NCBI GenBank assembly: GCA_900018345.1
Contig: FCNA01000152.1
Coordinates: 1-45,107 of the forward strand
Source of the DNA: Clostridiales bacterium CHKCI006
GTDB lineage: Bacteria > Bacillota_I > Bacilli_A > Erysipelotrichales > Coprobacillaceae
Direction: 5' to 3'
Length of the DNA: 45,107 bases
Shown: positions 37,543-40,762 of the stretch, piece by piece
Numbering within the stretch: position 1 is the first letter of the stretch
Layout of the letters: each line of letters starts with the position of its first letter
Made by a program: the position numbers and the translations under genes
Notes under the pieces: generated by a model
Seen by the model: the letters and a program-made list of their open reading frames with translations, nothing else
Database searches by the model: none
What the model was told of the DNA's origin: nothing

Positions 37543-39021
37543 ATGGGATTTCCTAAAGGATTTTTATGGGGTGGTGCAACTGCCGCTAACCAATACGAAG
37601 GTGGTTATTTAGATGGCGGTAAAGGCTTAGCGACAGCTGATGTCATCACTGGCGGCGATTTACATACGCCACGTCGTATCTCTGTTGAGCTTGCCGATGG
37701 TACAAAAACAATGATTCCTCGTAATCAGGAAGTACCTGCCGGTGCAAAGGCTTATGTAGATGACAATATTTATTATCCTAGCCATGTGGCAACAGATTTC
37801 TATCATCATTGGAAAGAAGACATTGCCCTGTTTGCGGAAATGGGCTTTAAGTGCTTCCGTATGTCCATTAACTGGTCACGTATTTATCCAATGGGTGATG
37901 AGGAAACGCCAAATGAAGAAGGTTTGAAATTCTACGAAGATGTGTTCAAAGAATTACATAAATATGGTATTGAACCAGTTGTAACGATGAACCATTTCGA
38001 TATTCCACTTCATTTAGCTGAAAAATACGACGGCTGGGCTGATCGCAAGATGATCGATTTCTTCTTGAAATTCTCTGAAACGATCTTCACCCGCTATAAA
38101 GGCTTAGTGAAATACTGGATGACTTTCAACGAAATCAATTTCTGTAAAGATTTCTCTAATATCGGTATTACCGAAGCACAGTCTAATCCACAAAAACAGG
38201 CTCAGGCGATTCACCATGTCTTAGTAGCGAGTGCTAAAGCTGTTCAGTTAGGACACAAAATTGATCCGGAAAATAAAATTGGTATGATGATTGCATACAT
38301 CTTAACTTATGCTTACTCCTGCAATCCAGCAGATGTTCAGGCTGAAATTGATTTTGCGAGAGGCTTTAAGATGTTCTGGGTAGATGTACAGTGCCGTGGT
38401 TACTATCCAAGCTACAAAGTCAAAGAGTATGAGAGAAATGGCATCACGATTCATAAAGAACCTGGTGATGATGAAGACTTAAAGAATGGTACGGTGGACT
38501 ACATCGGCTTTAGTTACTACAACTCTTTAGTTGTACAGGCAAACCCAGAAGGCGAGAAGACTGGTGGTAACCAGATGGGTGGCGTGAAGAACCCTTACTT
38601 GAATGAGAGTGAGTGGGGATGGCCAATTGACCCTATGGGATTACGTATCGCCTTGAATCAGTTATGGGATCGTTATCAGAAACCATTAATGGTTGTTGAG
38701 AATGGTCTTGGTGCAAAAGATACGGTTGAAGCAGATGGCTCCATCAACGATGATTACCGTATTGATTACTTAGCAAAACATATTGCGGAAATGAAAAAAG
38801 CAATTGATATCGACGGTGTTGAATTATGGGGATACACTCCATGGGGATGCATCGACTTGGTTTCTGCCGGTACAGGTGAAATGCGTAAACGTTATGGCTT
38901 CATCTACGTCGATATGGATGACGAAGGAAAAGGAACCTTAGCACGTTCACGCAAGAAATCTTTCTACTGGTATAAGAAAGTCATCGAATCAAACGGTGAA
39001 GATTTGTCTACGGATGAATAA
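37543..39021 (+). CDS. 6-phospho-beta-glucosidase (GH1)
   Basis: A 492-residue GH1 enzyme. Acid/base in MTFNEIN, nucleophile in VVENGLG. The segment [20 protein letters not shown] is the phosphate-site signature of 6-phospho-beta-glucosidases (Ser, Lys and Tyr contact the 6-phosphate; Ala-Gly where LacG has Trp). It would split cellobiose- or salicin-type 6-phosphates made by a PTS that is not in the window. AAGGAGG and the extended -10 suggest strong expression, and codon choice (many CCA, GGT, TTA, AAA) differs from the GH1 gene at 21912. Its terminator has been cut by an insertion element. Confidence 0.88.
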
Positions 39022-39038
39022 AAGAACTGGGCTTCCAG
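39018..39038 (+). other. left half of the split terminator, with the left target duplication
   Basis: AAAGAACTGGGCTTCCAG. With the sequence after the right copy of the target site (TTCTTTTTTT from 40752) it would form a hairpin AAAGAACTGG/CCAGTTCTTT with T run, the natural terminator of the GH1 gene. GGCTTCCAG at 39030-39038 is the left copy of a 9-bp target duplication. Confidence 0.75.
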
Positions 39039-39085
39039 CAATGTCATTAAGTTAAAGGAAAACATGATATTTTGAGGATTAAGAT

Positions 39086-39119
39086 AAGGTACTGATTGAA
39101 TTAAGAATCGGTACCTTTT
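39086..39119. terminator. hairpin inside the left end of the IS
   Basis: AAGGTAC-T-GATT pairs with AATC-G-GTACCTT, then TTT. It may replace the lost terminator of the GH1 gene and also ends the transposase transcript. Confidence 0.7.
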
Positions 39120-39237
39120 CGATTATTGCTAAATTAATAAATCATCAAGCACATTTTAAACGCACTTGAAAAGAACTTGTCATCAAGCTCGAAAAAATTT
39201 GTTGTTATTCTAAATAAACATGCTATAATAAATTGTG

Positions 39238-40557
39238 TTATGACGTTCTGTGATTAAATGGCTTAACCGATTTTGACTTTATAGGACGTTCATAAGATCT
39301 TTCTGGTCTTATAGGGACCAGAAATTTTTTTATTCTTGAAACAAGTCTTTTTTCATTCAACAGATTTCTTAAATATAATCGAATATTTGTCACTGCATTG
39401 GCAAAATTTGCTTTATAGGAATATTTGCGATTTTGCTTGATTTCAATATTATTGACAATGATTTCAGAAACATTATACATTAGAAATGTGGCATTGATTT
39501 CCTGCTGTATCAGTTTTCTATTGACTGCATGAAAGTAAACCATACCTAATGTATTCTTGACCTTGTTAAAAGCTGTTTCCTCTTCCCAACGATAATGATA
39601 CAGTTCTTTGAAGTCCTCAAGAGAGAATTCATCATCGCTTAAATTTGTGACAATTGTTTCATAGTTGCTATCACCTGTTTTGAATCTCACAACTCTCAGT
39701 GACATTTCATAATCATCATGGGTTGGATCAAGGAAATCAAATCTGGATGTTGATGGCACGAAGACATATCTTTCTTTATTGGCCTTTATTTCTTTGGTCT
39801 GAAGTCTTGTCAATGTACGTGACACGGTTATATCGAAAGTTCCATCAGGAGTGATGATGTTCGTCATGATGCCATTTTTTGTATTGATGTCCTTGACACG
39901 GATGGCAAATTTAAGATTGCGTTCAATGAAATGAGCAAACAAATTGTAATTCTCATAGCCACGGTCAGCGGTGAAAATGGCATTTTGGGGATAGTGCCCA
40001 CTATAGATGATATTGATCAGAGCATCACTTTCCTGTTTTTTTGTTGCAGTATCAATACTCCAGTCCAGAAAGATATGATTCAAACAATCATATAGAGCAT
40101 TGATATGATACTGGCAGCAGGGAATGTCAAACTGATTATATGTAATTCTGGTATCATCATTCCTGAAAGGGATATTGATGGAAGAACCGTCCTGAGCTAA
40201 TATACGATAGCCATTAATGGTAGAATAGTTGTCAAAGCTGCATAGGAACAGGCGATTGATACGTTTGAAGATTTCAGGATCCAAAAGCTTTCTACGCTGG
40301 CAGAGAGCCGAAGGAGTAGGCATGTCCTCCATATCAGAAAAGAAAAGCGATAATTCACTGAGGGTGGAATGATTAGAGAAGTTCATAATGCATTCGATCA
40401 AAGTACGAGCAGAGAGCTTGCGGTTACGAGTGAAATTGGAAACAGGATCAAGACAATAGTTTTGAATGCCTTGGAGAGTAAAATCAATAGATTTGTTTAG
40501 ATTCTTTTTGATTTTACTAGGTGAATAGTAGATGTTAGATTTTGAATGATTCAACAT
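39238..40557 (-). CDS. IS4-family transposase
   Basis: A 439-residue DDE transposase. Catalytic Asp123 (LAQDGSSINIP), Asp198 (FTADRGYENY) and Glu327 are in place, and the IS4 signature Y-(2)-R-(3)-E-(6)-K fits Tyr320-Arg323-Glu327-Lys334 exactly. AGGAGG (GGAGGTACTTAAC before ATG) gives a good site. It appears intact, so the element may still move. A 14-bp hairpin upstream probably limits expression from outside promoters. Confidence 0.92.
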   Translation of the reverse strand: MLNHSKSNIYYSPSKIKKNLNKSIDFTLQGIQNYCLDPVSNFTRNRKLSARTLIECIMNFSNHSTLSELSLFFSDMEDMPTPSALCQRRKLLDPEIFKRINRLFLCSFDNYSTINGYRILAQDGSSINIPFRNDDTRITYNQFDIPCCQYHINALYDCLNHIFLDWSIDTATKKQESDALINIIYSGHYPQNAIFTADRGYENYNLFAHFIERNLKFAIRVKDINTKNGIMTNIITPDGTFDITVSRTLTRLQTKEIKANKERYVFVPSTSRFDFLDPTHDDYEMSLRVVRFKTGDSNYETIVTNLSDDEFSLEDFKELYHYRWEEETAFNKVKNTLGMVYFHAVNRKLIQQEINATFLMYNVSEIIVNNIEIKQNRKYSYKANFANAVTNIRLYLRNLLNEKRLVSRIKKFLVPIRPERSYERPIKSKSVKPFNHRTS

Positions 40558-40596
40558 GTTAAGTACCTCCTAAAAAAACACATCATCTACTAAAAA

Positions 40597-40632
40597 GGGC
40601 TATTAATGAATGATAAAATTCATTAATAGCCC
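40597..40632 (-). terminator. 14-bp hairpin terminator upstream of the transposase gene
   Basis: GGGCTATTAATGAA (40597-40610) and TTCATTAATAGCCC (40619-40632), eight-base loop, with TTTTT next on the minus strand. It lies 40 bp before the start codon and would stop read-through into the transposase. Confidence 0.7.
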
Positions 40633-40674
40633 CACGATTTCAAAACTTTGTCAATAGAAAAATAGACAAAAAAT

Positions 40675-40714
40675 AAAAAAAGTCTCTCAGCATAAAAAAC
40701 TGTTGAGACTTTTT
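40675..40714. terminator. hairpin inside the right end of the IS
   Basis: AAAAAAGTCTC pairs with GAGACTTTTT, with a short inner CAG/CTG stem. Symmetric, so it works in either direction. Confidence 0.65.
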
Positions 40715-40742
40715 GAGTTAAATCCTTAACTTAATGACATTG

Positions 40743-40762
40743 GGCTTCCAGTTCTTTTTTTA
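40743..40762 (+). other. right target duplication and right half of the split terminator
   Basis: GGCTTCCAG (40743-40751) repeats 39030-39038, followed by TTCTTTTTTT. The T run has lost its 5' hairpin arm. Confidence 0.75.

Follow-up and report, generated by a model that had tools for sequence, protein, structure and literature searches.

An IS4-family insertion sequence (IS) of Clostridiales bacterium CHKCI006 lies within the terminator hairpin of a glycosidase gene, and most of the surveyed insertions of its relatives outside the genus Allobaculum are likewise centred on hairpins. The DNA analysed, called the window here, is a stretch of 45,107 nucleotides (contig FCNA01000152.1, positions 1 to 45,107). 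The placement of the element, the preference of its relatives for hairpins, the centring of their insertions, and the separate contributions of the dyad and of the flanking A/T tracts were all observed. It is highly probable that the transposase prefers DNA of intrinsic-terminator form, in which a dyad-symmetric stem stands between an A tract and a T tract. The features concerned are:

37495-39021, + strand: GH1 glycosidase gene, its terminator split (open reading frame (ORF); PF00232, 1.5e-121)
39020-39030, + strand: 5' arm of the split terminator hairpin, overlapping the glycosidase stop codon at 39019-39021 (sequence, RNAfold)
39030-39038, + strand: left copy of the target duplication, GGCTTCCAG (direct repeat)
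39039-40742, - strand (that of the transposase): IS4-family insertion sequence, 17-bp perfect ends, NCBIfam NF033592
39039-39055, + strand: left terminal inverted repeat, CAATGTCATTAAGTTAA (repeat search)
39238-40557, - strand: transposase ORF of 439 aa, DDE_Tnp_1, candidate D123-D198-E327, Y320-R323-E327-K334 motif (ORF list, domain and motif search)
40726-40742, - strand: right terminal inverted repeat (repeat search)
40743-40751, + strand: right copy of the target duplication, GGCTTCCAG (direct repeat)
40748-40761, + strand: 3' arm of the split terminator hairpin and its T tract (sequence, RNAfold)

The limits of the element, which is 1704 bp long, follow from the positions of its perfect inverted ends. 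When the flanks are joined with one GGCTTCCAG copy removed, the sequence becomes AAAAGAACTGG-GCTT-CCAGTTCTTTT followed by a T run, which RNAfold folds into an 11-bp perfect stem, confirming the hairpin that the preliminary description had rebuilt in the same way. With this stem, seven T and an arm that overlaps the glycosidase stop codon, the target is an intrinsic terminator by form. The perfect ends, the GGCTTCCAG repeats and the rebuilt stem bear out the earlier claim that an IS4-family element sits inside this hairpin. The span then given, 39018-40762, takes in both hairpin arms in addition to the element. The duplication was also said to cover the loop and the 3' arm; it does cover the loop, to which the 5' arm adds its final base and the 3' arm only the first four of its 11 bases. 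Its centre is 1.5 bp from the dyad of the hairpin. An Rfam scan of 38900-40900 gave no matches.

Related copies were gathered by DNA, protein and pattern searches, and their ends and duplications were then located. The 17-bp end was found exactly in 62 of the 315 genomes of the order, the reversed control pattern giving zero in every row listed. Dyads were scored +1 for each pair and -2 for each mismatch with a loop of 3 to 10, and each site was given its highest-scoring dyad among those centred no more than 2 bp from the middle of the duplication; on this scale the window site scores 11. Copies were left out of the counts if they had no exact duplication of 8-13 bp, an element outside 1400-3000 bp, a flank shorter than 40 bp or repeated flanks; among the copies listed without a duplication, several had ends that were misplaced by the end finder. 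The main count is of 60 distinct sites outside Allobaculum, and also leaves out elements of other phyla that are of the size of miniature inverted-repeat transposable elements (MITEs).

Such a survey of other copies had been proposed in the preliminary description, with random sites and no hairpin preference named as the contrary outcome. A dyad scoring 6 or more is present at 40 of the 60 sites, so that overall the copies are not randomly placed with regard to hairpins; those of Allobaculum, described below, lack the preference. By group, the 40 are made up of 12/17 in G184, 4/6 in G018, 3/5 in G217 and 21/32 in the others. As background, among 107,626 flank positions at the survey loci 1.87% reach this score and 0.12% a score of 9 or more; among 9,289 non-ORF positions the figures are 2.64% and 0.45%. 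When dyads scoring at least 7 were sought anywhere within 10 bp, 39 sites had one, and in 35 of these it lay no further than 1 bp from the centre of the duplication. The transposases that use hairpins are about 32-55% identical to that of the window, with the addition of one relative (G001) at 82%, and include that of Clostridium manihotivorum, whose site reaches the scoring maximum of 16. The other complete copy in the genome of the window (C152) is also centred on a rebuilt terminator-like hairpin, with a score of 14 and a 5-nt loop; it was kept out of the 60 because its duplication copies are degenerate, agreeing at 7 of 9 bases.

A further IS4 relative (L348, genome G244) lies in an apparent terminator behind the 3' end of a tmRNA or tRNA, as identified by eye. 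The two copies of its duplication agree at all but 2 of 9 bases, and its outer arms form perfect inverted repeats. The left arm of a second copy (L347) is the same as that of L348.

An independent test in a different phylum, with an experimentally tractable element, is provided by the prototype IS4 of Escherichia coli. It was found with a K-12 insG query in 2659 of 5426 genomes, at 5360 places in all. The sample consisted of the K-12 locus and 21 hits picked by hand among 60 of the 2739 matching records, and these 22 loci reduce to 11 distinct sites, 9 being repeats flagged by script and two more (L378 at bamD and L384 at adhE) repeats as well. Nine of the 11 sites score 6 or more (with a loop of up to 12), compared with 3.8% of 5,205 K-12 intergenic positions. 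Eight of these nine follow an annotated gene (glgP, bamD, ymcF, adhE, crr/pdxK, fumB, glcA and metK) on its 3' side, at no more than approximately 70 bp; the remaining one, within the yicI ORF, is an imperfect dyad. The joined empty sites are intact (at least 80% covered) in many other strains: 5322 of the 5426 genomes for crr-pdxK, 2162 for adhE and 3818 for metK. In K-12 itself the crr-pdxK hairpin is uninterrupted. Since the distant E. coli element has the same preference, it is probably old within this part of the IS4 family.

Two other observations were made in this species. In a copy at the adhE terminator of E. coli 20Y000092 (L394), the two 12-bp target copies are not direct repeats but exact reverse complements, which would fit an inversion of the hairpin loop beside adhE. 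The K-12 element IS186C (L395:14273-15617) is 28 bp behind nupC, likewise in a 3' intergenic position.

Several points weigh against a preference for hairpins. There are 20 sites among the 60 without a dyad of 6 or more. The relative closest by DNA (G001, 79%) has a strong dyad in just one of its four copies with an exact duplication (scores 11, 5, 2 and 2). Allobaculum elements with the same 17-bp ends give 0 of 50 on the dyad test, and of the MITE-size elements with the same ends from other phyla 1 of 17 passes, although several of these look palindromic. In E. coli, the nan-region site has no dyad (score 2), and IS4 is found in two ORFs, that of yicI and that of an oxidoreductase, the latter with a score of 3 that does not qualify; the hits were also hand-picked from one listing. 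The scoring rule was set after the first sites had been seen, and p-values are nominal because the control positions overlap. Finally, the empty site of the window was rebuilt from its flanks and not observed, since a family search with the right flank gave only partial matches, mostly 66-71% similar (short stretches aside), and no usable empty locus. It is clear that hairpin centring is a preference and not a rule, and a preference shared by every element with these ends was rejected on the Allobaculum result.

The Allobaculum targets (L245-L301; genomes G044 and G043) are a mirror image, with a T tract to the left and an A tract to the right of the duplication and no hairpin. These tracts are at about the same distance from the duplication as those of the window clade, and the arms do not covary. 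One 3.1-Mb Allobaculum genome has 67 forward and 67 reverse matches to the 17-bp ends. In a tree of 35 transposases, Allobaculum is on a long branch among the hairpin users (node support 84/76, which is weak) and G217 is outside. This placement makes a loss likelier than an original state, and the Allobaculum lineage has probably lost the preference, with its tract polarity reversed.

The MITE-size elements are approximately 80-350 bp, have the 18-bp end CAATGTCATTAAGTTAAG and were seen in Bacteroidota and other phyla (L172, L155, L142, L117, L204 and others). Several of them are in palindromes that are GC-rich by eye.

It might be supposed that insertion is near random, copies in genes being purged and those in terminators remaining. 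Terminators are intergenic, and 18 of the 29 classifiable hairpin sites are directly 3' of an ORF (on crude ORF calls), as such survivorship would have it. However, a dyad is found at 67% of sites as opposed to 2.6% of random non-ORF positions, and purging cannot give centring to within about 1 bp of a dyad. Nor does it account for the same-ended Allobaculum copies, or for the E. coli yicI site, which is inside an ORF and yet retains symmetric arms. This explanation is very improbable.

The base profile around the duplication has an A peak (82%) at the ninth base to its left and a T peak (88%) at the eighth base to its right, and 35 of the 40 hairpin sites have an A or T run beside the stem. 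A conserved target sequence was considered and rejected; the stem and duplication sequences vary, and the window clade shares only the A/T tracts and the symmetry. E. coli IS4 also favours GG/CC adjoining the duplication. The tract peaks are at fixed positions in all groups, 8 of the 20 sites without a dyad have a tract score of 4 or more, and Allobaculum uses its mirror image without a dyad, all of which could mean that phased A/T tracts, as bent DNA, are the whole target and that terminators are hit for the spacing between their A and T. When tracts are matched at a score of 4 or more, however, a dyad is present at 32 of 40 IS sites and at only 155 of 2711 control positions, and weak tracts accompany a strong dyad at 5 of 32 sites. 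In the inner arms and at the edges of the duplication, bases also pair at frequencies of 0.42-0.52, compared with 0.26-0.32 predicted from column composition, and such covariation within and beside the duplication likewise counts against tracts by themselves, an unlikely sole target. Conversely, among strong dyads (8 or more) a tract score of at least 4 is found in 27 of 32 IS sites as opposed to 11 of 58 control positions. Each feature stays enriched at IS sites when the other is matched, therefore both the dyad and the tracts count.

The preference for terminator-like DNA probably arises through the transposase itself, which would read the target feature and make a staggered cut around the dyad that duplicates the central 9-10 bp of the hairpin. 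The chances seem about even that the transposase does this as a symmetric dimer, on duplex DNA that is bent and dyad-symmetric. The chief rival is the recognition, by shape, of an extruded cruciform or a single-stranded hairpin. The stem sequences are diverse, with the dyad as their common factor, and the cuts are at the loop or its edges; the single case of the L394 copy, with its reverse-complementary duplications, would also be in keeping with it. Duplications of 9-13 bp are, by contrast, those of ordinary staggered duplex cuts, some targets have symmetric arms around a core that is only weakly palindromic (E. coli yicI and the L381 ORF), and tracts at fixed positions are as expected of a duplex read by protein. 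A cruciform or hairpin target is possible, if somewhat doubtful. The terminator-type A/T run beside most stems would also suit recruitment of the transposase by a terminating RNA polymerase or by the RNA hairpin. In that case a bias might be seen in the orientation of the transposase relative to the gene read into the site, but none was found (7 against 5). Some sites are within ORFs, and the centring is symmetric in the DNA and is not at the RNA release point, making such a coupling to transcription decidedly improbable.

The element itself carries hairpins that may bear on termination:

39083-39120, + strand: terminator-like hairpin facing the glycosidase transcript, 12-bp stem and UUUU (0 of 30 shuffles as good)
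39300-39331, + strand: second inward terminator-like hairpin, seven T, lying antisense within the 3'-terminal part of the transposase ORF (fold scan)
40596-40633, - strand: strong hairpin and T run within the 5' leader of the transposase gene, opposed to transcripts that enter from the right flank (fold and shuffle scan)
40677-40715, either strand: hairpin close to the right end, with A and T tracts on its two sides, that could serve both strands (fold scan)

Of 24 elements scanned, Allobaculum included, 22 have a terminator-like hairpin at one or both ends that was unmatched by any of 30 shuffles, on a single-base null that is lenient. The leader hairpin at 40596-40633 has 16 pairs and a T run directly 5' of the transposase start codon, and similar hairpins are seen in relatives. 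As the preliminary description had proposed, it is plausible that the glycosidase gene is now dependent on an IS-borne hairpin, those at 39083-39120 and 39300-39331 being the candidates. Such hairpins near the IS ends would replace the terminator that the insertion has split, and they may keep host transcription out of the transposase gene; perhaps the leader hairpins in particular block read-through into it. The cost of an insertion to the host would then be low, the broken terminator being made good and the transposase shielded. The earlier suggestion that the choice of target spares host genes fits the positions of the insertions.

The assignment to the IS4 family is based on several features. 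The window transposase matches NF033592 (IS4 transposase) with 142.8 bits, the cut-off being 115, and PF01609 (DDE_Tnp_1) at 1.4e-16. The accessible text of PMC2266710 gives the family motifs as Y(2)R(3)E(6)K and D(60-110)D(100-150)E. The first of these is present as YHYRWEEETAFNKVK at residue 320, and D123, D198 and E327, separated by 74 and 128 residues, fit the second; these catalytic residues are candidates, picked from motif reading and not from structure. A single ORF (439 aa) and a duplication of about one helix turn (9 bp) are also traits of the family. For subgroup IS4 the same text describes ends of the form -AATR--------WTW----, a size of 1400-1650 bp and duplications of 10-13 bp. 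The ends CAATGTCATTAAGTTAA agree with this pattern at all fixed positions, and the element is slightly outside the ranges in its size of 1704 bp and its 9-bp duplication; its relatives are mostly 1550-1830 bp with duplications of 9-10 bp. On these grounds the element is placed in family IS4, with subgroup IS4 as the nearest. E. coli IS4 shares with it NF033592, the pattern of the ends, the YREK motif and insertion in terminator hairpins, and differs in its duplications of 11-14 bp as opposed to 9-10 bp. E. coli InsG also has an N-terminal PF13006 domain that was not found in the window protein by domain search, and it is on a very long branch in the transposase tree, which bears on the grouping of the window element with the prototype. 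Remnants of the same IS are probably left elsewhere in the host genome at G000:C38:13083-13331 (249 bp, 100%) and C89:42256-42308 (53 bp, 79%).

Other mobile elements are known to use palindromes or terminators, as described in the accessible parts of the papers cited here. ISRm22 of Sinorhizobium (IS4 family, subgroup IS4Sa) is found in REP palindromes (PMC1525189), and is thus another IS4-family element with copies in palindromes, although these are of a single repeated GC-rich sequence and the terminators used by the relatives of the window element are diverse. IS621 and other REP-targeting IS110 elements similarly insert in palindromes between genes (PMC1525189), but have a transposase of the DEDD type (PMC11187229). 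In Staphylococcus aureus, IS1272 targets inverted repeats of differing sequence, with two of three new insertions directly downstream of genes (PMC5678879); unlike the window element, it takes the place of the inverted repeat, and no duplication results. Replacement of this type was rejected for the window site, where there is an exact 9-bp duplication and both arms are present. Group IIC (class C) introns also target intrinsic terminators, which has been explained as limiting their expression and the harm they do (PMC3522654). These are RNA retroelements, however, and they insert downstream of the terminator and not within its stem-loop.

For IS4 elements themselves the literature, in its accessible parts, reports arm specificity, and palindrome targeting is reported for other elements. 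No statement of terminator targeting by IS4 elements was found in the searchable literature, although older subscription papers could hold one. A 1984 report is said to have described IS4 in the pheST attenuator, a position that would agree with the present survey; it was searched for and not found.

The positions of the insertions suggest that these relatives pick hairpins as landing sites, where they can be copied without breaking host genes. If this is true, the founder of the IS4 family gains a structural target rule in place of a fixed sequence, one open to immediate test in E. coli K-12, and these elements would be a DNA-transposon counterpart of the class C introns, landing safely where transcription units end. 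A broader proposal, to which even weight is given for and against, is that terminator targeting may be an ancestral trait that defines much of the IS4 family, the founder included. Terminators would then serve as genome-wide safe harbours in which the elements' own terminators repair the damage, and one lineage would have switched to mirror-image tracts, lost its need for the dyad and multiplied to 67 copies or more in a genome of 3.1 Mb. The opposite tract polarities of Allobaculum and the window clade offer natural transposases in which the residues that read the target could be found. It should also be borne in mind that IS4 insertions can rewire termination between adjacent genes.

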